From: Clostridium sp.
GTDB taxonomy: Bacteria > Bacillota > Clostridia > Lachnospirales > Lachnospiraceae
Length of the DNA stretch: 37,087 bases
Assembly (NCBI GenBank): GCA_023664775.1
Contig: JAMPEW010000030.1
Location: 1-37,087, forward strand
Reading direction: 5' to 3'
The notes below the pieces were generated by a model. That model searched no databases. It saw nothing but the letters and a program-made list of their open reading frames with translations, and was not told the DNA's origin. A program made the position numbers and the translations under genes. Every line of letters begins with the position of its first letter. The first letter of the stretch is position 1. Shown piece after piece: positions 24,899 through 35,614 of the stretch.

Positions 24899-24949
24899 CT
24901 GCTGCAATTAGGAATTAAGGAGAATTAACCTGATTGCAGCAGTTTTTTT
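24899..24949 (+). terminator. Terminator of rpoB-rpoC
   Basis: CTGCTGCAATTAGG (24899-24912) pairs with CCTGATTGCAGCAG (24929-24942) with one wobble; seven T follow. It marks the left border of the accessory island. Confidence 0.9.
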
Positions 24950-24983
24950 GTTTTGTGTAGAGCCAAACAACGGTGCTAGGAAA

Positions 24984-25016
24984 TAATTATTACATCTATA
25001 TGGGTAATTATTACAT
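24984..25016. promoter_or_regulatory. Direct repeat TAATTATTACAT with 21-base period
   Basis: TAATTATTACAT occurs exactly at 24984-24995 and 25005-25016. A 21-base period (two helical turns) is typical of paired sites for LytTR-type regulators such as AgrA, ComE or PlnC. A TATGAT box follows at 25025-25030 with no good -35 box, as expected for an activated promoter. The regulator is not in the window. Confidence 0.45.
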
Positions 25017-25143
25017 TATACTGATATGATAGAAAAAAATATGCTATATATAGATAATAGTAAGCAATACTTTGAGGAGGTGGTTGTGGAAAATAAAAAA
25101 AATTACTAAAGATAATAAGTAAATAATGTAACAATCAAATTAA

Positions 25144-25278
25144 GAAGTATTTAAGGTTTTTGACAATCATACGGCTTATAATTCTTTTGGCAAAGGTATA
25201 AAGATATTAGTTTATGAGCCTAGGATGCCACAGGCTTTAAAGAAGCAAAACGATGTAAACAAACGGGAAAAGAAGTGA
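25144..25278 (+). pseudogene. Decayed coding fragment, unknown
   Basis: A frame without start codon runs for 44 codons, beginning after a TAA. The peptide (EVFKVFDNHTAYNSFGKGIK, then ILVYEPRMPQALKKQND) has a normal, mixed composition and looks like protein. I cannot name its family. It may be the end of a gene whose start is the ribosome site near 25075. Confidence 0.3.
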
Positions 25279-25410
25279 TTATCCTGCGTAAAGGTGAGAT
25301 GTAGGACTTGAAGGGGGCAATCGAAAAGGATAAATAAAATTATTATCTTGCTTGAAATTATCGTTTTATTTGAAACATGTTGAGATTAAAAATGTTAGGA
25401 GGACAATACA

Positions 25411-25800
25411 ATGAAATACGGAAAATATATTATGACATTTGTTTTTTTATGCGTTATGTTTTTTTATTCGTCAGAAGATGCATCGGCATCAACAAGTAAA
25501 CCTTATGGAAGCTATAGTACAACTATTTCTGGAGGAATTATTGCAACTTCAACTATAACAAAATGTAGCTGTAATCCAGTGAATAATTATTTAATGGCAG
25601 CTATACAGATTCAATATAAGTCAGATGGTAATTATTATTGGACACCGTCTTCAACGACATATTATTATAGCGAGGGTAATGACACAGAGAGTAAAACAAG
25701 AAGTATAACGCATTCTGGTATTACATATGCAAAAGGCTGGTTTAAAGCAAGATGTGGTTCTGGTAGTGTAAAAGAATATTATGATACAGCCACAAATTGA
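25411..25800 (+). CDS. Small secreted protein, bacteriocin-like candidate
   Basis: This 129-aa protein has a clear signal peptide: a short basic head, a hydrophobic core (IMTFVFLCVMFFY) and a cleavage site after ASA at about residue 26. The mature part of about 103 residues is rich in Ser, Thr, Tyr and Gly, with three Cys (KCSCNP and ARCGSG) and a C-terminal pattern (KGWFKA, then EYYDT). Size, export signal and an ABC system with FtsX-like permeases directly downstream recall the lactococcin 972 group, whose mature end also has a W-x-K-A segment followed by aromatic pairs. The resemblance is weak, and the Cys residues are not typical of that group. AGGAGG precedes the ATG. It could also be a non-toxic surface protein or a signal. 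Confidence 0.8.
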   Translation: MKYGKYIMTFVFLCVMFFYSSEDASASTSKPYGSYSTTISGGIIATSTITKCSCNPVNNYLMAAIQIQYKSDGNYYWTPSSTTYYYSEGNDTESKTRSITHSGITYAKGWFKARCGSGSVKEYYDTATN

Positions 25801-25828
25801 CGTTTTTGTCAGAGAAAGTTTATTATAG

Positions 25829-25866
25829 ATTAGGGTTGCCCCCTAGTTTATGATATCACTAGGGGG
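25829..25866 (+). promoter_or_regulatory. Two mutually exclusive hairpins, one hiding the ribosome site
   Basis: CCCCCTAGT (25839-25847) pairs perfectly with ACTAGGGGG (25858-25866). The 3' arm holds AGGGGG, the ribosome site of the permease gene starting at 25872, so this fold blocks translation. Alternatively ATTAGGG (25829-25835) pairs with CCCTAGT (25841-25847) with one wobble, which frees the ribosome site. Both use the same bases, so only one can form. No T-run follows, so this is not a terminator. Confidence 0.6.
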
Positions 25867-25871
25867 TACAT

Positions 25872-26987
25872 ATGATTACATTCCATTTATTAAAAAAACA
25901 TATACAAATGCATAAGTCTGTATCGGCGCTGCTTTTTTGCGGGATTGTAGTATGTATATACTGCATAAGCGTAATGCTTGGAATTGCAGTTGGACAGTAC
26001 AATATGCTTGCAAGCACAAATACTTATGGTTCCATTACATTTGATATTGGTGAGGATACTTCAAAAAAAATGGACGAGGTGTCAGAATTTATAAATAATT
26101 TTTCAAAAAATGGCGTGATAAATGTTATTTATTTAAGCAGAATTTCAGATAACCTGATTGTTGTAGGCTGGGACGGAACAAAGGGGCAAAATTGGTTTCC
26201 TTTAACCACAGGCAGATTTTTCAATGAGAAGGAAATGTCCGATGGCGAAAAATCGGCACTTGTTTCGGACAATATTGGAAATGATATCTTATCAAATCAA
26301 ACCGTTGATATTGGACAAGCTTCTTATAATATTATCGGGACTGCATGGATTGTGCCATGGAATTTTTTGGCAGCCATTTCTTCAAATTCAAATGTTCATG
26401 TAATAAGGGAAGATGATACGGAGTGGACACTTTCTTTTGTTATTATCCCATTGAAATGCTATAAAGAGGAATTTATACCACAACAAATACTGATACAATT
26501 TAATTCTGCATCTTATTCCGAATTAAAAAAATATGCAGGTGAAATAGAAAGCAGATATGGGGATTCAAAGGCATATCCGCCTGTCAAAAATTCTGATGGC
26601 ATATTGTATGAGAATACAATAAAATATGGAAAAATGGCAGTGATTTTATGTTTAATTGCAGGATTGACAGTAATAAGGCTTATGGCTGAATGGATCAGGC
26701 TTTATCAAAAGGAGATGCGTGTGCTGAGACTTTGTGGAATGACAGGGCTGCGATGCACATTCAATATATATGGGCATTTGCTTTTGTATTTTATTTTAGG
26801 AATTGGCATTGCGATATTTCTGCATTATCATACATTTTTCCTGCTTAAAGCAGTATATGGAAATACTTTTCCTGCAATGAGCAAATTGATAACGCTGCTT
26901 GCAATACTGTTTGCATTGTCTGTTATTTTTACCATTCCGGTTACAAGAAAGGCAGTTGCTTTAGGAAAAGAGGTGACACTTACATGA
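25872..26987 (+). CDS. FtsX/MacB-like ABC permease, first subunit
   Basis: This membrane protein of 371 aa has the layout of FtsX-like permeases: one N-terminal helix (about 18-40), an extracytoplasmic domain of some 200 residues (about 45-250) and three C-terminal helices (about 255-275, 298-318 and 335-355). The domain has little similarity that I recognise. Its stop overlaps the next gene's ATG (ATGA type), so the two permeases are coupled and probably form a heterodimer. Transporters of this type do not import; they extract lipoproteins or peptides from the membrane or confer immunity. With a secreted protein upstream, export or self-protection is the likely job. The start ATG follows AGGGGG, which sits in a hairpin. 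Confidence 0.82.
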   Translation: MITFHLLKKHIQMHKSVSALLFCGIVVCIYCISVMLGIAVGQYNMLASTNTYGSITFDIGEDTSKKMDEVSEFINNFSKNGVINVIYLSRISDNLIVVGWDGTKGQNWFPLTTGRFFNEKEMSDGEKSALVSDNIGNDILSNQTVDIGQASYNIIGTAWIVPWNFLAAISSNSNVHVIREDDTEWTLSFVIIPLKCYKEEFIPQQILIQFNSASYSELKKYAGEIESRYGDSKAYPPVKNSDGILYENTIKYGKMAVILCLIAGLTVIRLMAEWIRLYQKEMRVLRLCGMTGLRCTFNIYGHLLLYFILGIGIAIFLHYHTFFLLKAVYGNTFPAMSKLITLLAILFALSVIFTIPVTRKAVALGKEVTLT

Positions 26988-28222
26988 ATTTTCTAAGAAT
27001 ATGTAAAAATCTTTATTCCAAATATTTTCTTAGTGAAGCGATTTTGCTGTTTCAGCTCGTATGCATGATAGGATTTTCCTTTGCTGTGCTTAATCCGATA
27101 GATGCGTTTATTCAGAAGAAAAATGCACTAAATCATGTGTATAAGCTTGATATAGCTGATACAATTCATTTTAGTAAGAGTAATGCGGTTTACGAACAGG
27201 AAATGCACGATGACTTTTCTTCGTCTGATGAAATATACAAAAAAATATGTGAAACGGAAGGAGTGGATCGTGTACTTCGGTTTCGTCTTGCCAATGGCAT
27301 GTACGAAACAGAAACGATAGACCCTAATACGAATAAAGCAAAATTGGCAAGTTCAAATTTGCTTATCTATTCGGAGGAAACATTACAAAATGTAAATATT
27401 CAACTGTCCTCTGGTAAAATTGAAAAAAATGTGCATGACGATATTCCTATATTAGTAGATAGCAGCTTGGCTGATGTCATGCCAATAGGGACAAAAAAGG
27501 AATTTCAGATTGGAATGACGGACAAGCGGATAAACTGCGTTGTAACAGGTATTATAAAAGAAAAAAGCGTGTTGCCAGTAATTATGAATTATGGGTCAAT
27601 ACCGGATTTAGGGGTATTGGGTGCTTTTCCGGAAGATGTAAAAGGATATAGTTTTATTATAGTATATGGAAATGATGATTTATTATCTGATATAGGCTGG
27701 GAATCAAATTTTCTTATATGTACAAAAAAAGGTGAACGTGGGGAAATAGTAAGCAAGCGGCTTGAGGAGGCTGTTGGAAATTACGGAACCATAAATATAA
27801 ATCGCAGAATGATTTTCTTATCGTTTAGGGAAATGCTGAAAGAAAATTCATGGAGCATTCTTACCTTTGCGATGTTAAGCCTGATAGCAGTTTTTGGCTT
27901 TGGAGGCTATCTGTTTTTGATGATTAAGCAGAAGCAGGTCGAATTTGCTGTTTTTTATATATTAGGCATGACACGAAGGAAAATGACGGTTACAATATTT
28001 CTTTCAAATCTAATTATGCTTGTTGTTGCATTTGTAGTCGCATCATTTACGACGCCGCAGTTTATTGGCGATGTTCTTCTGATCAAACAAAGCACGCCCG
28101 GATTTTTTAGTTATGCATTTTGTGGAGGCGTGTTAATGATTATTTTGTTGTTCAGCGTACTTGCAGCCTTTAGACTGTCGGGACGGCTTGAGGAAATAGC
28201 AATATATAAAGGGGGTGACTAA
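26984..28222 (+). CDS. FtsX/MacB-like ABC permease, second subunit
   Basis: This is the second permease, 412 aa, with the same layout: N-terminal helix (about 17-38), large outside domain (about 40-280) and three C-terminal helices (about 291-315, 333-355 and 370-392). It overlaps the first permease gene by 4 bases. The last helices carry the FtsX-like pattern, with the segment VEFAVFYILGMTRRKM between helices; this coupling segment touches the ATPase. Together the two permeases total 783 residues, close to the single large permease of lactococcin 972 loci, so the pair may be a split version; this is inference. The last bases contain AAAGGGGG, the ribosome site of the ATPase gene. Confidence 0.82.
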   Translation: MNFLRICKNLYSKYFLSEAILLFQLVCMIGFSFAVLNPIDAFIQKKNALNHVYKLDIADTIHFSKSNAVYEQEMHDDFSSSDEIYKKICETEGVDRVLRFRLANGMYETETIDPNTNKAKLASSNLLIYSEETLQNVNIQLSSGKIEKNVHDDIPILVDSSLADVMPIGTKKEFQIGMTDKRINCVVTGIIKEKSVLPVIMNYGSIPDLGVLGAFPEDVKGYSFIIVYGNDDLLSDIGWESNFLICTKKGERGEIVSKRLEEAVGNYGTININRRMIFLSFREMLKENSWSILTFAMLSLIAVFGFGGYLFLMIKQKQVEFAVFYILGMTRRKMTVTIFLSNLIMLVVAFVVASFTTPQFIGDVLLIKQSTPGFFSYAFCGGVLMIILLFSVLAAFRLSGRLEEIAIYKGGD

Positions 28223-28223
28223 T

Positions 28224-28910
28224 GTGCTTCAAATGAAAAAGGTAAATAAAATATATAATCAGGGTAAAAATTATGAGGTACATGCAATAAAGGATATTGA
28301 TTTGGAAATTAATGAGGGAGAAATGATTGCAATTACCGGACCGTCAGGCTCGGGTAAATCAACGCTGCTGCATATACTGGCAGGCATAAGCAGAGCAACG
28401 TCAGGTGAGTATTATTTTGATGGAGAAGATGTTTCAAAAATGTCAGACAGCGCCAGATGTAAAATCAGAAATAAAAAAATAGGAATTATTATGCAGGACT
28501 TTGGGTTGCTGGGCGATGATACCGTAATTAGAAATGTGTGCCTGCCGCAGATGATTAGTGGAGAATATAATAAGGCTGTCGCTGAAAAAGCAAAAAGAAT
28601 GCTTCATATAATGGGGCTTGATGATGTAGTTAAAAAGAAGGTTAATCAGCTTTCAGGAGGACAAAAACAGAGGGCTGCAATTGCCAGAGCACTCACAATG
28701 AATGCAAAGGTAATTATTGCCGATGAACCAACCGGTGCGCTTGATATACAAAACACTGAAATATTGATGAAGCTTTTTAGGGAAATCAATAGTCAGGGAA
28801 TCTCAATTATTATTGTTACCCATAATCCGTTGGTTGCTGATTTTTGCCCCATAAGGTATACATTAACAGATGGAGTAATAAAAAGAGCTGTGGTGGAGAG
28901 CGAAGGTTAA
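28224..28910 (+). CDS. ABC transporter ATPase, LolD/MacB type
   Basis: This is the ATP-binding subunit (228 aa) for the two permeases. It has Walker A GPSGSGKST (about 39-47), a Q-loop (MQDFGLLG), the signature LSGGQKQR, Walker B IIADEPTGALD and the switch His in VTHNP. The set is complete, so it should be active. GTG 28224 follows GGGGG (28211-28215) at a normal distance; a GTG at 28215 lies inside the ribosome site, and an ATG at 28233 is also possible. LolD/MacB-type ATPases work with FtsX-like permeases. No terminator is seen after the gene; a broken copy of a downstream gene begins directly. Confidence 0.95.
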   Translation: MLQMKKVNKIYNQGKNYEVHAIKDIDLEINEGEMIAITGPSGSGKSTLLHILAGISRATSGEYYFDGEDVSKMSDSARCKIRNKKIGIIMQDFGLLGDDTVIRNVCLPQMISGEYNKAVAEKAKRMLHIMGLDDVVKKKVNQLSGGQKQRAAIARALTMNAKVIIADEPTGALDIQNTEILMKLFREINSQGISIIIVTHNPLVADFCPIRYTLTDGVIKRAVVESEG

Positions 28911-28913
28911 ACA

Positions 28914-29093
28914 AAAAGTGGATAGTTACTAAAAGTAAAAAGAGAAGATGATATTGTTTTTGTGTTGTAAAACATATATTACATCAAAAGGGGTATGGAC
29001 ATATAAGTTGGACAAATATGTACAGTTTATATCATCATGTTTTGAATATAGTTTATTAGAGGTGCAAAACGAAAAAATGTTGAGTAAAGAGTA
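28914..29093 (+). pseudogene. Truncated copy of the 3' end of the 29455 gene
   Basis: This stretch is highly similar to 30383-30577, the last 60 or so codons of the five-TM gene downstream. The shared parts include AAAACATATATTACATCAAA and the end CGAAAAAATGTTGAGTAAAGA. A deletion of about 14 bases after GAGAAGATGAT shifts the frame, and only the 3' part of the gene is present. It starts just after the ATPase stop. It shows that a second copy of the gene once stood here and was mostly lost. Confidence 0.85.
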
Positions 29094-29454
29094 GGCATCG
29101 TTAAAGGTTGGGTTGCAGATGGCATGGGTAAACATCTATCTCATAAACTGTATTAAGTGGGCATTAAGTTTAATTGGTAAAATTTTTTAATAAAATTGCA
29201 AACACTACTGAAGGTAATGGAAACCAAACAATTAGTCTGTATAATGGCGGTTTAAGTTGTCCGCAGATTGATGTAAGGTTTACAGGTAATAACCTTAGCT
29301 TTGGGAACAATATGTTACTAAAATCAGTCAGATTGCAAATTAAACATATATTGAACAGAAAGGAAACCATGCTTACATGATTTGTTTTAGTGGAAAGCTT
29401 GCTAGTACTCGATCAAATTTTGAGTATATTCAGACAATGCATGGAGGATAAAGT
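29094..29454 (+). pseudogene. Decayed coding region, unknown
   Basis: No intact gene is visible. Short open stretches follow each other in different frames: IVKGWVADGMGKHL near 29097, then NGNQTISLYNGG and IDVRFTGNN (29174-29380), and lastly a frame ending in FEYIQTMHGG whose TAA lies just before the ATG at 29455. The last stop is placed like that of a gene coupled to the next one. I read the region as a small gene broken by frameshifts. I cannot name its family. Confidence 0.4.
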
Positions 29455-30588
29455 ATGAATGATATTTTTAATTTAATCATTAAATTGTTACAAATAGGTT
29501 TGAGTATTCCGATAATTTTTGGGATGATTTTTGTATTTGTTATATATAGGATATTGTTAATTGAAAGGAAAAATGTTTTTTGCATTGCAACAATATGGCA
29601 AAAAATATTGGTGACGATAAGAGATTTTTTATTGTTGTGGATGGCATTTATGTCTGTGGCATTGATTAGTGTTTTTTTCCCTTATAAATTAACATATAAT
29701 TGGATGATAGAAATAATTATCTCTATTATAACATGTTTATATTTTTTAATTCTGATATTACATTTATATGTTGGTGTAATTGCATTGGATTTTAGGATAA
29801 GCAGGAAGGTATTTAATATCCTTTTTATTACTTATTATGTGTTATCATTTGTAGAAATTTTCTTGCTTCCAATGAAATCCAGTGATTTTAAAACAAAAAT
29901 TTTGACGGGATTTGTTGTGGCTTGCATTTCATCCGGTACACTTATATATAGTAATAATGCACGATACAACAAAGGCACATGGGTGCGGAAAAAATCTTTT
30001 TATTATGTAAATGAAAAAAAGTTTTATATTCATAGAATAATGGGTAACGATGTAATATGTAGCTATAATAGACTTATTGATGAGAAAAAGGGATATAAGG
30101 TTGAAAAATTGGAAAATGTTAAAATGCATACAATACTTCAGGATGATGTAGAAATACCATACGATTATTTAACATATTTATTAAATAAGCGTAAATATGA
30201 AATAATTGATAAAGATGAATTTGTTGATTGCGGTATTGAAAAAATATTAGAAAGATTCAATGTAAAACAAATAAAAAATATTAAAATCGATTTATTTAAA
30301 CATAACTGGGCATTTTCAGTATTGCTTAAAGGAAAATACGAAAAAATAACAGAAAAAATGACTGTTAATAACGATAATAATAAGAAGTGGATGCTATTAA
30401 AGGTAAAAGGAGAAGATGATGTTGATTTATTGTTGTTGATTTTGTGTTGTAAAACATATATTACATCAAAAAGAGTATGGACATATAAGTTGGACAAATA
30501 TGTGCAGTTTATATCATCATATTTTGAATATAGTTTATTAGAAGAACAAAACGAAAAAATGTTGAGTAAAGAAGATGACTTCATTTAA
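29455..30588 (+). CDS. Five-TM membrane protein of the island, unknown
   Basis: This 377-aa protein has about five hydrophobic helices in its N-terminal half (about 12-36, 50-75, 82-110, 118-139 and 148-166) and a soluble C-terminal half of about 210 residues, rich in Lys, Ile, Asn and Asp. I do not recognise the family. The base composition is markedly AT-rich compared with the flanking ribosomal genes, which points to recent acquisition. GGAGGATAAAGT precedes the ATG. Its 3' end is duplicated at 28914-29093. Its place after a secreted protein and an ABC system, and the duplication, would fit an immunity protein that diversifies by copying, but this is only inference. Confidence 0.75.
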   Translation: MNDIFNLIIKLLQIGLSIPIIFGMIFVFVIYRILLIERKNVFCIATIWQKILVTIRDFLLLWMAFMSVALISVFFPYKLTYNWMIEIIISIITCLYFLILILHLYVGVIALDFRISRKVFNILFITYYVLSFVEIFLLPMKSSDFKTKILTGFVVACISSGTLIYSNNARYNKGTWVRKKSFYYVNEKKFYIHRIMGNDVICSYNRLIDEKKGYKVEKLENVKMHTILQDDVEIPYDYLTYLLNKRKYEIIDKDEFVDCGIEKILERFNVKQIKNIKIDLFKHNWAFSVLLKGKYEKITEKMTVNNDNNKKWMLLKVKGEDDVDLLLLILCCKTYITSKRVWTYKLDKYVQFISSYFEYSLLEEQNEKMLSKEDDFI

Positions 30589-30614
30589 TGGCTTCATTTA
30601 ATGGAAAAAACTAG

Positions 30615-30643
30615 TTGACAGACGAAAAACATAATAATATAAT
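30615..30643 (+). promoter_or_regulatory. Perfect-consensus promoter of the str operon
   Basis: TTGACA at 30615-30620, a spacer of exactly 17 bases, and TATAAT at 30638-30643. Transcription would start near 30650, about 100 bases before rpsL. Confidence 0.92.
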
Positions 30644-30751: not shown

Positions 30752-31171
30752 ATGCCAACTTTTAATCAGTTAGTTAGAAAGGGTAGACATTCTATCGAGA
30801 AGAAGTCAACTGCACCTGCTCTCTTAAGAAGCTACAACTCTCTTAAGAAAAAGCCTACTGACACTGCTTCACCACAGAAGAGAGGTGTTTGTACCGCAGT
30901 TAAGACAGCTACTCCTAAGAAGCCTAACTCAGCTCTTAGAAAGATTGCCAGAGTTCGTTTGTCAAACGGAATCGAGGTAACAAGCTACATCCCTGGTGAA
31001 GGTCACAACCTTCAGGAGCACAGCGTTGTTCTTATCCGTGGCGGCAGAGTAAAGGACTTACCTGGTACAAGATACCACATTATAAGAGGTACGCTTGATA
31101 CAGCAGGTGTTGCTAAGAGACGTCAGGCACGTTCTAAGTATGGTGCAAAGAGACCTAAGGATGCAAAATAA
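30752..31171 (+). CDS. rpsL: 30S ribosomal protein S12
   Basis: S12 is part of the decoding centre. The 139-aa protein starts with [11 protein letters not shown] and contains the conserved [20 protein letters not shown] and [14 protein letters not shown] loops. The lysines where streptomycin resistance changes usually occur (in PKKPNS and VKDLPG) are normal. A basic C-terminal end ([13 protein letters not shown]) follows. TGGAGGTG precedes the ATG. It is the first gene of the str operon, with a perfect-consensus promoter upstream. The usual small L7Ae-like gene between rpoC and rpsL is absent; the accessory island is in its place. Confidence 0.98.
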
Positions 31172-31290
31172 GGTCGGACCATATATTAGTTTGTCTAAAA
31201 CTAAATAGTGCGAAAGTAGGTTATGTTTTCTAGTTATAGATAAAATGTAAGCAATTTTTGCACGAACACATTTGGTTTCCATTTTATGCC

Positions 31291-31319
31291 TGAACAAAGC
31301 AGGAGCGCTGTTTTGTTCA
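31291..31319 (+). repeat. Inverted repeat between rpsL and rpsG
   Basis: TGAACAAAGCAG (31291-31302) pairs with CTGTTTTGTTCA (31308-31319) with one wobble around a 5-base loop. It lies about 35 bases before the rpsG ribosome site. The rpsL-rpsG space is the site of S7 autoregulation in other bacteria, so this may be a binding hairpin; no direct evidence. Confidence 0.5.
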
Positions 31320-31369
31320 AAAATGTGAGTACCGTTGAATTAATTAAAATAATTAAGGAGGGAAGAACC

Positions 31370-31840
31370 GTGCCACGTAAAGGACATATTGCAAAGAGAG
31401 ACGTATTAGCGGATCCTATTTACAACAATAAGGTGGTTACAAAGCTTATCAATAACATTATGTTAGACGGTAAGAAGGGAGTAGCCCAAAAAATAGTATA
31501 CGGCGCATTTGACCGTATAGCAGAGGAGACCGGTAAGGATGCCTTAGAGGTATTTGAGGCGGCTATGAACAATATCATGCCGACCCTTGAGGTTAAGGCG
31601 AGACGTATCGGTGGTGCTACCTATCAGGTACCAATTGATGTAAGACCTGACAGGAGACAGGCACTTGCTCTTCGTTGGCTTACTACATTTTCTCGTGCGA
31701 GAAGTGAAAAGACAATGGAAGAAAGACTTGCCAAAGAGCTTATCGATGCATCAAACAACACGGGTGCAGCTGTTAAGCGTAAGGAAGATATGCACAAGAT
31801 GGCAGAGGCAAACAAGGCATTTGCCCACTACAGATTCTAG
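31370..31840 (+). CDS. rpsG: 30S ribosomal protein S7
   Basis: S7 nucleates assembly of the 30S head. The protein (156 aa from this start) begins [18 protein letters not shown] and contains [15 protein letters not shown], the [24 protein letters not shown] loop and a normal C-terminus. The frame is open to 31286, but GTG 31370 has AAGGAGGG (31355-31362) in front and gives the family's usual length. It is the second gene of the str operon, and fusA follows after 97 bases. Confidence 0.98.
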
Positions 31841-31937
31841 TAGTGCACTGCCTATATGATGTGTATAAATACGCATTATCGTTGTGCAAAAAACAGCGCA
31901 AATAGCGCACTGTCTATGATATAAGGAGGAAAAAACC

Positions 31938-34052
31938 TTGGCTGGAAGAGAATATCCACTAGAGAGAACAAGGAACATCGGTATCATGGCTCATATTGAT
32001 GCAGGAAAGACTACTCTTACTGAGAGAATTCTTTACTATACCGGTGTAAACTATAAAATAGGTGATACCCATGAAGGTACTGCTACCATGGACTGGATGG
32101 CTCAGGAGCAGGAAAGAGGTATCACAATTACTTCAGCAGCAACTACCTGCCATTGGACATTAGAGGATCATCATAAGAAAAAGGATGGCGCCTTGGAACA
32201 CCGCGTCAACATCATTGATACTCCGGGACACGTTGACTTCACTGTAGAGGTTGAGCGTTCACTCCGTGTACTTGATGGAGCTGTTGGTGTATTTGATGCG
32301 ATGGCTGGTGTTGAGCCACAGTCAGAGAATGTGTGGCGTCAGGCTGACACGTACAATGTACCACGTATGGCATTCATAAATAAGATGGACAAGATGGGTG
32401 CTGACTTTTTCTATTCAGTTCAGACCATCATTGATCGTTTGGGCAAAAATGCCATACCTGTACAGATTCCTATCGGAAAAGAGGAAAGCTTTATTGGTCT
32501 TATTGACCTTTTCGAGATGGAAGCATACTATTATAAGGATGATAAAGGTACTGACATTGAAATCACGGCAATTCCTGATGATTTAAAGGATGAGGCAGAG
32601 CTTTGGCATGCGAACCTTGTTGAAAAGTGCTGCGAGTTAGATGATGATTTAATGATGATGTATCTTGAGGATGAGGAACCATCCGTTGATCAGTTAAAGG
32701 CTGCACTTCGTAAGGGCACAATTGCCTGTGAGGCAGTTCCTGTATTCTGTGGTTCCGCATATAAGAATAAGGGTGTACAGAAGATGCTTGACGGCGTTAT
32801 CGAGTATATGCCGGCACCAACTGATATACCTGACATTAAGGGCGTTGATGCAGAAGGTAATGAGGTGGTTCGTAAATCATCGGATGACGAGCCGTTTTCG
32901 GCACTTGCATTTAAGATTATGACTGACCCGTTTGTTGGTAAGTTAGCATTCTTCAGAGTGTACTCCGGTACCCTGAATTCCGGTTCCTATGTATTAAATG
33001 CAACGAAGGACAAGAAGGAAAGAGTTGGACGTATCGTTCAGATGCATGCCAATTCCCGTACTGAGATTGATAAGGTTTACTCAGGAGATATTGCGGCAGC
33101 AGTAGGATTTAAGGTTACTTCAACCGGAGATACTATATGTGATGAGCAGCATCCGGTTATCTTAGAGTCTATGGAGTTCCCTGAGCCTGTTATTGAGCTT
33201 GCTATAGAGCCAAAGACGAAAAATGATCAGGGCAAGATGGGTGAGGCATTAGCAAAGCTTGCTGAAGAAGATCCTACATTTAGGGCTCATACAGATAAGG
33301 AAACCGGTCAGACAATCATAGCTGGTATGGGTGAGCTTCATTTGGAGATTATCGTAGACAGACTTCTTCGTGAGTTTAAGGTTGAGGCAAATGTCGGTGC
33401 ACCACAGGTTGCATACAAGGAGACATTTACTAAGCCTGTTGACGTAGACAGCAAGTATGCGAAGCAGTCAGGTGGTCGTGGTCAGTATGGTCACTGTAAG
33501 GTTAAATTTGAGCCTATGGACCCTAACGGTGAGCAGCAGTTTATTTTCGAATCAACGGTTGTAGGTGGTGCTATTCCGAAGGAATACATCCCGGCTGTTG
33601 GCGAGGGTATTGAGGAGGCTGCCCAGGCTGGTATTCTTGGAGGATTCCCGGTACTTGGCGTCAAGGCTACTGTATACGATGGTTCATACCATGAGGTCGA
33701 TTCATCAGAGATGGCATTCCACATAGCAGGTTCCATGGCATTTAAGGATGCAATGAACAAGGGTGGGGCCGTTCTTCTTGAGCCTATCATGAAGGTTGAG
33801 GTTACTATGCCTGAGGAATACTTAGGCGACGTAATCGGAAGCTTAAATGCTAAGCGTGGACAGATTGAAGGTATGGATGATATTGGCGGCGGTAAGATTG
33901 TAAGAGCTTACGTTCCGCTTGCCGAGATGTTCGGTTATTCAACACAGCTTCGTTCTGCAACGCAGGGACGTGGTAACTATTCCATGTTCTTTGAGAGATA
34001 CGAGCAGTGTCCGAAGAACATTCAGGATAAGGTCCTTTCCAATAAGGGCTAA
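31938..34052 (+). CDS. fusA: Elongation factor G
   Basis: EF-G is the GTPase that drives translocation (704 aa). It has the G1 motif [10 protein letters not shown], the switch segment [11 protein letters not shown]3 DTPGHVDF, G4 NKMDKMGAD and the following domains II-V; the segment [12 protein letters not shown] marks domain IV. The start is TTG 31938 behind AAGGAGG at 8 bases. It is preceded by an imperfect direct repeat around GCACTGCCTATATGAT and GCACTGTCTATGATAT in the rpsG-fusA gap. It is the third gene of the operon; tuf follows after 200 bases that contain a separate promoter. Confidence 0.98.
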
Positions 34053-34170
34053 GATAGCAAAGGCTATTGAAAAACAAAAGTGAAACCGAAGGTACGAGCA
34101 GATATTATTTGGATTATCTGCAAGTGCTTCGGCATGAAGTAAAATAATAGTAATTTTAGTTTAAAAAGGC

Positions 34171-34203
34171 TTGAAAATATTACCATATTTTAATATAATA
34201 TGG
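34171..34203 (+). promoter_or_regulatory. Separate tuf promoter with overlapping dyad
   Basis: TTGAAA (34171-34176), a 17-base spacer and TATAAT (34194-34199) form a strong promoter inside the fusA-tuf gap. CCATATT (34183-34189) and AATATGG (34197-34203) form a dyad across the -10 box. Transcription would start near 34206. Confidence 0.75.
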
Positions 34204-34252
34204 ACTAGCTGAAATTTAACCCGAAAAGGGGTAATTTAAGGAGGAAATAATA

Positions 34253-35440
34253 ATGGCAAAAGCTAAGTTTGAAAGAACTAAACCACATTGTAACATTGGT
34301 ACAATCGGACACGTTGATCATGGTAAAACTACTTTAACAGCAGCTATCACTAAGACTCTTAACGCAAGACTTGGTACTGGTGAGGCTGTTGCATTTGAGA
34401 ATATTGATAAGGCTCCAGAGGAGAGAGAAAGAGGAATCACTATCTCAACTGCTCACGTTGAGTACGAGACTGAGAACAGACACTACGCACACGTTGACTG
34501 TCCGGGACATGCTGACTATGTAAAGAACATGATTACCGGAGCTGCACAGATGGATGGCGCTATCCTTGTTGTTGCTGCTACTGATGGTGTTATGGCTCAG
34601 ACAAAGGAGCATATCCTTCTTTCACGTCAGGTTGGTGTTCCTTACATCGTTGTATTCATGAACAAGTGTGACATGGTTGATGATGAGGAGCTTCTTGAGC
34701 TTGTAGAGATGGAGATTACTGAGGTCCTTGAGGAGTACGAGTTTACAGGCTGCCCAATCATTAAGGGTTCAGCTCTTAAGGCTCTTGAGGATCCTTCAGG
34801 CGAGTGGGGCGACAAGATTCTTGAGCTTATGAAGACAGTTGATGAGTATGTTCCAGACCCACAGAGAGATACAGATAAGCCATTCCTTATGCCTGTTGAG
34901 GACGTATTTACTATCACAGGCCGTGGTACTGTTGCAACTGGTAGAGTTGAGTCAGGTGTAATCCACATCAACGAGGAAGTTGAGATTGTTGGTATCAAGC
35001 CTGAGGTACAGAAGACTACTGTAACAGGTATTGAGATGTTCAGAAAGCTTCTTGATGAAGGACAGGCTGGTGATAACATCGGTGCACTTCTTCGTGGTAT
35101 CAAGAGAGAGGAAATTGAAAGAGGACAGGTTCTTTGTAAGCCGGGTTCAGTAACCTGCCACACTAAGTTTACTGCTCAGGTTTACGTTCTTACTAAGGAC
35201 GAGGGTGGACGTCATACTCCATTCTTCAACAATTACCGTCCACAGTTCTACTTCAGAACTACAGACGTAACTGGTGTTTGTAACCTTCCAGCAGGTACTG
35301 AGATGTGCATGCCTGGTGATAACGTAGAGATGACAATCGAGCTTATTCACCCAATCGCTATGGCACAGGGTCTTACATTCGCTATCCGTGAGGGTGGTAG
35401 GACTGTTGGTTCAGGTAGGGTTGCTTCTATTATTGAGTAA
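34253..35440 (+). CDS. tuf: Elongation factor Tu
   Basis: EF-Tu delivers aminoacyl-tRNA to the ribosome (395 aa). It has G1 [10 protein letters not shown], the switch segment RGITIS, G3 [13 protein letters not shown]4 NKCDMVDD, domain II with [13 protein letters not shown] and a C-terminal domain ending in [12 protein letters not shown]. Its codon use is more biased than that of its neighbours, as expected for a very highly expressed protein. AAGGAGG precedes the ATG. It can be transcribed from the str promoter and from its own promoter, and a terminator follows. Confidence 0.99.
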
Positions 35441-35462
35441 TTAATAAAAAAGCTAGAATTAT

Positions 35463-35495
35463 AAGGACTTCGGGCGGTTTGCTCGGAGTCCTTTT
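35463..35495 (+). terminator. Terminator of tuf
   Basis: AAGGACT (35463-35469) pairs with AGTCCTT (35487-35493), with an inner CGGGC/GCTCG stem and a GGTTT loop. TTTT follows. Confidence 0.85.
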
Positions 35496-35614
35496 CTGAC
35501 TTGTTTTTGAGAAAGTGGAAGCGTGATAACAGAATGATAACAAAAATTCACAAATTCAATGAAGATTTGCATGTGGAGAAATTGGTTATTTACGTCGTTC
35601 ACTGGTGCTGTTAA

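Follow-up and report, generated by a model that had tools for sequence, protein, structure and literature searches.

The closest described counterparts of the locus considered here, as far as arrangement goes, are those of lactococcin 972 and streptococcin B, in which a Sec-exported small protein is followed by a membrane permease and an ATP-binding cassette (ABC) ATPase. The orf2-orf3 genes of lactococcin 972 are described as immunity genes (PMC4055356), and the transporter genes of lactococcin 972-type loci are proposed to serve both immunity and transport (PMC4055356, PMC11796350). Mediterrocin, from Mediterraneibacter gnavus, is a Lachnospiraceae bacteriocin with a Sec-type signal peptide, an ABC ATPase gene in its cluster, clade-specific spread and a DUF1430 immunity protein, according to PMC12345188. 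We report a similar but distinct arrangement between rpoC and rpsL in a Lachnospiraceae genome, Clostridium sp. contig JAMPEW010000030.1, from a 2.65-Mb assembly of 60 contigs; the window is the whole stretch of 37,087 nucleotides that was analysed. The gap that separates the rpoC stop (24867) from the rpsL start (30752) measures 5,884 bp at a GC fraction of 0.32, compared with 0.42-0.46 in the flanking 1-kb windows (over rpoC; 31001 to 35500), and it holds the following cassette.

25411..25800, forward strand: sp129, a 129-aa protein, predicted to be bacteriocin-like, with Sec-type signal-peptide features and Cys 52, 54 and 115
25821..25866, forward strand: two mutually exclusive predicted RNA hairpins in the sp129-ftsxA gap, their sequence conserved in three genomes
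25872..26987, forward strand: ftsxA, FtsX-type permease A, 371 aa, with a MacB-like periplasmic domain (MacB_PCD match)
26984..28222, forward strand: ftsxB, FtsX-type permease B, 412 aa, overlapping ftsxA by 4 nt
28215..28910, forward strand: LolD/MacB-type ABC ATPase, catalytic motifs present

An initial annotation of this DNA had reported an AT-rich gene set of about 5.6 kb between rpoC and rpsL, and the genes it named are all present. By analogy with the systems above, we favor, at a probability of roughly 0.6, the reading that sp129 is a bacteriocin-like protein and that the FtsX/LolD transporter serves self-protection. The system would then be of a known kind, in a new form with a two-FtsX pump and a secreted protein that matches no family searched.

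The beginning of sp129 has the sequence features of a Sec signal peptide, as in the lactococcin 972 family: Lys at positions 2 and 5, a mean hydropathy of 2.8 over residues 7-18, and A-x-A at 24-26, in 3/3 orthologues, although a scan for 19-residue membrane segments left this start unflagged. The mature part holds Cys 52, 54 and 115, in line with the exported three-Cys protein first annotated, a further Cys (14) lies within the signal-peptide-like start, and every Cys is conserved in both orthologues (G014, 91% identical; G021, 84%). Searches of Pfam, NCBIfam and solved-structure sequences gave no match to sp129 beyond chance (Pfam and NCBIfam at E-values up to 10, with HMMER filters discarding most matches above 0.1), and nothing was found in plasmids, phages or viral contigs. 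Specifically, the lactococcin 972 profile PF09683 did not match sp129 at E up to 10 and had no match in its own genome at E 0.001, and the mediterrocin model NF052268 likewise failed to match sp129 at E up to 10. Unlike the lactococcin 972 and streptococcin B peptides, sp129 contains Cys and has no family-profile match; it may, as the annotation suggested, represent a new class of peptide. Mediterrocin shares with the present locus its family of hosts, a Sec-type signal, an ABC ATPase in the cluster and clade-specific spread, and differs in its DUF1430 immunity protein and in being annotated in the lactococcin 972 family.

The transporter genes form an intact set. The two permeases had been annotated as FtsX-like and coupled, and their reading frames do overlap; FtsX-A scores 32.5 bits against MacB_PCD, passing the cut-off of 27, and 17.9 bits against FtsX, missing the cut-off of 25.5, which FtsX-B also misses, narrowly, at 25.4 bits (E 1.6e-5). 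In each protein a large outer domain is flanked by a single membrane segment on the N-terminal side and by three on the C-terminal side, which is the layout of FtsX-type transporters, and from their sequences the pair look like two FtsX-type subunits; neither has a sequence-detectable solved relative. The ATPase is complete, as annotated, with Walker A, LSGGQ, Walker B and H-loop motifs that place it in the LolD/MacB group, and LolD and MacB are its nearest relatives. In NCBIfam it falls below the cut-offs of both the LolD model (217.6 of 307.75 bits) and TIGR03608 (191.6 of 254.85), and its score below the latter cut-off is a further difference from the lactococcin 972 and streptococcin B loci, as is the use of two FtsX-type permease subunits. 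LolC and LolE are likewise two FtsX-type subunits, and in subunits and ATPase the set resembles the LolCDE and MacB-type (FtsX) transporters, BceAB included; the differences there are that the present permeases lack a solved sequence relative and that a secreted protein, sp129, stands adjacent. The permeases match FtsX, MacB_PCD and chance-level families and have four segments each, unlike a DUF1430-type permease of about seven segments. The notion that a large lactococcin 972 permease had been split in two is not supported, since neither permease matches the associated models (Pfam, NCBIfam, E up to 10, under the same HMMER filters), and distant copies keep the same order of two permeases plus ATPase. 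The annotated resemblance to lactococcin 972 loci thus holds for the arrangement and not for the peptide or the permeases, which match no lactococcin 972 model.

The cassette genes are under purifying selection. The ratio of nonsynonymous to synonymous divergence (dN/dS) between genomes is 0.06-0.29 for the cassette overall (sp129, 0.15-0.29; others, 0.06-0.21), with sp129 and ftsxA compared in three genomes, the ATPase gene and full-length ftsxB in two, and part of ftsxB in the third; the end of rpoC, for comparison, gives 0.01-0.05. The cassette genes are therefore maintained, less tightly than rpoC. The distribution is patchy. Three of the 37 genus genomes carry ftsxA, as do three of the 18 with a completeness of 90% or more (own genome included in both counts); the relatives' genomes are assemblies, and some of the 37 are incomplete. 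For sp129 the count is 3 of 195 relatives, own genome counted, and a scan of 84,980 species genomes with exact peptide patterns, which may omit the window's own genome, found two loci, those of G014 and G021. The order of secreted protein, permeases and ATPase is seen in two genomes, and in the third, G021, up to a contig end inside ftsxB. Two chromosomal sites are occupied: G014 has the cassette at the same rpoC-rpsL junction, and in G021, where that gap is 261 bp, it sits elsewhere. Between the window and G021 the synonymous divergence (dS) is 0.42-0.74 in the cassette and 1.1 at the rpoC end, and this lower value in the cassette suggests, on sequence comparison, that it has moved by transfer.

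The junction itself varies among relatives. An rpsL match was present in 32 genus genomes, of which 30 were examined, two with partial matches being left out; the rpoC end and rpsL start lay in one stretch in 22 of the 30, and the other 8 had no rpoC end there (contig ends or other gene order). Twelve of the 22 gaps measure 111-481 bp and ten 1.56-7.4 kb, and open frames of at least 60 aa occur in nine of the ten long gaps, the exception being G033, whose gap is similar in size to that of G030. The cargo of the long gaps differs. In G036 and G034 (L036 811-5098; L037) it comprises a 161-aa secreted-type protein, two further proteins that begin with hydrophobic residues, and an ABC transporter; DUF2705 is matched in this cargo at 20.0 bits, slightly short of the cut-off of 22.4, and the 161-aa protein of G036 matches the mediterrocin model weakly, far below cut-off (14.9 of 40 bits, E 0.021). 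In G030 (L038 8719-9948) it is a Fic-domain gene on the opposite strand. The term accessory island, used in the initial annotation, is therefore apt: cargo is absent from most relatives, other cargo is found in some, and the present cassette, far from being a fixture of this place in all relatives, occupies it in two genomes. Swapping at the junction would account for the differing cargo at one place.

From these observations the following picture can be drawn. Lying behind the terminator of one operon and ahead of the promoter of the next, the rpoC-rpsL gap would be neutral ground for the exchange of competition cassettes. Most likely, the Sec-exported, three-Cys sp129 would inhibit close relatives at the cell envelope, and the FtsX-A/FtsX-B/LolD-type transporter would protect the producer by clearing the membrane of sp129, either alone or bound to a cell-wall target. 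Since sp129 has its own putative signal peptide, the transporter would not be needed for its export. The analogy with lactococcin 972, streptococcin B and mediterrocin points most simply to Sec export, action outside the cell and protection by FtsX/LolD.

Between sp129 and its putative pump lies the hairpin region. One predicted hairpin (1:2) pairs 25821-25835 with 25841-25855; in the alternative (2:3), arm 2 pairs with arm 3 (25858-25866), which contains the AGGGGG ribosome-binding site of ftsxA, and such alternative hairpins over the site may set the translation of the first permease. At their most stable the two structures reach -25.2 (1:2) and -24.3 kcal/mol (2:3 enforced) in the window, with identical values in G014, and -23.6 and -18.4 kcal/mol in G021. 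Against shuffled sequence the z-scores are -3.1 (window), -2.8 (G014) and -1.8 (G021), with 0, 2 and 6 of 200 shuffles as good. The 47-base stretch is conserved, with 44/47 positions identical to G021 compared with 86-87% in neighboring genes; the comparison comprises three sequences with few changes, in which covariation cannot prove structure.

The rest of the junction is occupied by these features.

24899..24949, forward strand: terminator-like hairpin of rpoC with a T run (arms 24899-24912 and 24929-24942), located by eye
24984..25016, forward strand: 12-bp exact direct repeat TAATTATTACAT, period 21 bp, between rpoC and sp129
25159..25183, forward strand: 25-bp promoter-like element, 23/25 identical to an element just upstream of the agr-linked secreted-protein gene on C32, another contig of this genome
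28942..29094, forward strand: 3' tail fragment, a second copy of the 377-aa gene (82% over 51 aa)
29186..29293, forward strand: relic of an agr-linked secreted protein, from its C-terminal part (36 aa at 69% identity)
29312..29442, forward strand: relic in two pieces, both from the membrane protein encoded after the agr-linked secreted protein in the intact cassette (scores below)
29455..30588, forward strand: 377-aa protein, an orphan at 25% GC, with four clear membrane segments
30615..30643, forward strand: rpsL promoter TTGACA-17-TATAAT, a perfect match

The rpoC hairpin is the left edge of the cargo and the rpsL promoter the right edge; the former went unlisted in the hairpin scan because its 16-base loop exceeds the scan's length limit, and the TTGACA...TATAAT of the latter precedes rpsL in empty and filled junctions alike, among those inspected. 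Between these edges the order is repeat, sp129, hairpin region, ftsxA, ftsxB, ATPase gene, tail fragment, relics and 377-aa gene. The direct repeat, which occurs once in the window and in none of 100 shuffles (12-bp repeat, 21-bp period), is kept in G014 in a 37-base form and is a possible regulator site, judged by its sequence; the stretch 25060-25350 around the 25-bp element is poorly coding DNA. As for the 377-aa gene, an open frame of that many codons has a chance probability of about 2e-18 at its base composition, and the protein is an orphan in Pfam and NCBIfam profile searches, as expected from its annotation as of no known family. It had also been annotated as having five membrane segments and a broken copy: it is a membrane protein, with four clear segments by hydropathy and a fifth uncertain, and the copy exists, merely as the 3' tail, a comparable tail being retained in G014 without the 377-aa gene itself. 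Only as a guess can it be taken for a second immunity protein.

The relics and the 25-bp element lead to a second group of loci. In G021 the cassette (sp129-ftsxA-ftsxB, cut by the contig end) adjoins GHKL kinase and LytTR regulator genes. The neighbors also include a gene for a C39-like protein, at 17.2 bits under its cut-off of 24, and one of 353 aa. These last two genes (L005 6700-8600) form an operon whose promoter block is common to sp129, and the 353-aa protein has a lipobox-like start. The window's genome encodes, on contig C32, a counterpart of the G021 LytTR regulator at 78% identity; the locus there (L117 7952-11711) runs from a GHKL kinase and LytTR regulator (both over cut-off) through AgrB (E 2.2e-30) and an AgrD-like peptide (18.6 bits, just below the cut-off of 19) to a secreted-type Cys protein cut by the contig end. 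The start of contig C54 (L133) overlaps the C32 end exactly (the contigs were not joined) and is followed by genes for two membrane proteins and an ABC ATPase and by one further gene; the membrane proteins, which match no Pfam family, are read as ABC-2-type permeases by size and position. The 25-bp element matches its C32 counterpart at E 5e-6 for that comparison. Moreover, sp129 and the C39-like operon of G021 are each preceded by a copy of one 146-bp block (89%), whose core, AAAATGCATTTCATGTACG, is also present in the agrB-agrD gap of C32; this argues, at the level of sequence, that sp129 is probably under agr control in G021.

Cassettes of this agr-linked kind (C32/C54 and C17 in the window's genome; G036, G083, G048 and G068) resemble the sp129 locus in setting a small secreted-type protein beside a dedicated ABC transporter, in sharing the 25-bp upstream element, and in having left a relic in the window; they differ in an unrelated secreted protein and other membrane proteins. 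As read from open reading frames, members of the family stand directly upstream of dnaA-dnaN in the window's genome (L134 841-4296) and in G036 (L135 7588-11028), and in G083 one (L136 7572-10967) stands shortly after the atp operon. The relic at 29312-29392 matches the beginning of the first membrane protein at 63% identity across 27 aa (E 4e-7), and 29380-29442 matches the same protein weakly (E 0.03). By these matches the relics come from a cassette of a third kind, a relative of which stands intact beside an agrBDCA-like locus in the same genome, and the junction would thus formerly have held a second cassette, or part of one. The decayed genes of the initial annotation are in this way confirmed and, in part, identified as pieces of a secreted-protein/ABC cassette. 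Together with the broken tail copy and the low GC, the relics would also suit an island made of the remnants of past insertions, with no present function; the intact frames at dN/dS of 0.06-0.29 and the conserved intergenic element make this very unlikely.

Several observations weigh against self-protection of a bacteriocin producer by the FtsX/LolD transporter, and the remaining alternatives draw on them. The streptococcin B study describes the permease (B) and ATPase (C) functions as unverified in any lactococcin 972 locus (PMC11796350), and for enterocin DD14 a LolD/FtsX-type ABC system is reported to contribute to export, a primary role in self-immunity having been excluded (PMC7332713). 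Since a LolD/FtsX-type system also adjoins sp129, the transporter might, as in that study, act in export, exporting or maturing sp129 or other cargo, with sp129 a signal or surface protein and not an antibacterial. The agr-type regulators near the G021 copy would suit signalling as well. However, sp129 bears signal-peptide features of its own, and LolCDE-type systems extract substrates from the membrane and do not translocate them; we regard this alternative as quite unlikely.

Distant copies of the FtsX pair bear on both sides of the question. An alignment of ftsxA against 280 genomes of the order found the gene in three, own included, and a search of 250 family genomes found it in two, own and G066. 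In the four distant copies compared (G066, G790 C89, G790 C115 and G831), no small secreted protein directly precedes ftsxA in the three with upstream DNA, the G831 contig beginning inside ftsxA; the pair thus also occurs without a secreted partner and may have another job. BlaI (PF03965) and BlaR1 (PF05569) genes, regulators of envelope-antibiotic responses, stand beside two of the four (G790 C89 and G831; L145 2057-8072, L146 1-3936), which fits protection against envelope antibiotics and lends independent support to a protective role of the transporter; a sigma-70-family gene lies downstream of the G066 copy, and near G790 C115 no regulator was recognised in the list of open reading frames, the one neighbor scanned with profiles giving no match. 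These neighbors, and the three copies without a secreted partner upstream, would be expected if the FtsX/LolD proteins were a self-standing resistance transporter against envelope antibiotics from outside, like BceAB, with sp129 an accessory sensor, decoy or shield. Set against this, sp129 accompanies the close copies in 3/3 cases, and in G021 it lies near agr-type regulators, company more usual for a secreted product than for a resistance pump. We consider the resistance alternative unlikely.

The remaining points against the bacteriocin and self-protection reading concern sp129 itself and its control. The protein is without a detectable family or a reliable fold: its predicted structure is all-beta at a poor predicted local distance difference test score (47.7), with no fold match at E 0.001. 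It has no detectable relation to the other secreted proteins of the cassettes found here, and the agr-linked promoter block of G021 has no above-chance match in the DNA preceding sp129, either in the window or in G014. As to the hairpins, the ribosome-binding site is predicted to be mostly paired in either state. In the 1:2 state it tends to pair downstream (mean unpaired probability 0.12, 0.28 and 0.34), and forcing arm 3 to be fully single-stranded gives -20.4, -23.7 and -20.2, which speaks against a simple switch. This matters most for a bolder version of the scheme, in which this bacterial group keeps an exchangeable stock of competition cassettes, every one pairing an unrelated Sec-exported protein with a separate class of ABC immunity pump, and swaps them between the rpoC-rpsL gap, the site upstream of dnaA, the site after the atp operon and agr loci, with sp129 founding a new bacteriocin family and its pump translated via a two-state RNA hairpin; the pairing of the ribosome-binding site in either state lowers its odds somewhat, and we hold this version as a tentative, rather doubtful possibility.

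Should sp129 prove to be a bacteriocin-like protein with a self-protecting transporter, the lessons would be practical as well as biological. Such cassettes would be worth seeking, as a rule, in gaps between conserved housekeeping operons, and the region between the secreted-protein gene and its pump offers a testable RNA element. Self-protection by two FtsX-type subunits would extend beyond the known lactococcin 972 permease, and the sp129 family, unmatched in the libraries searched, would be a candidate narrow-spectrum antibacterial of gut Lachnospiraceae.

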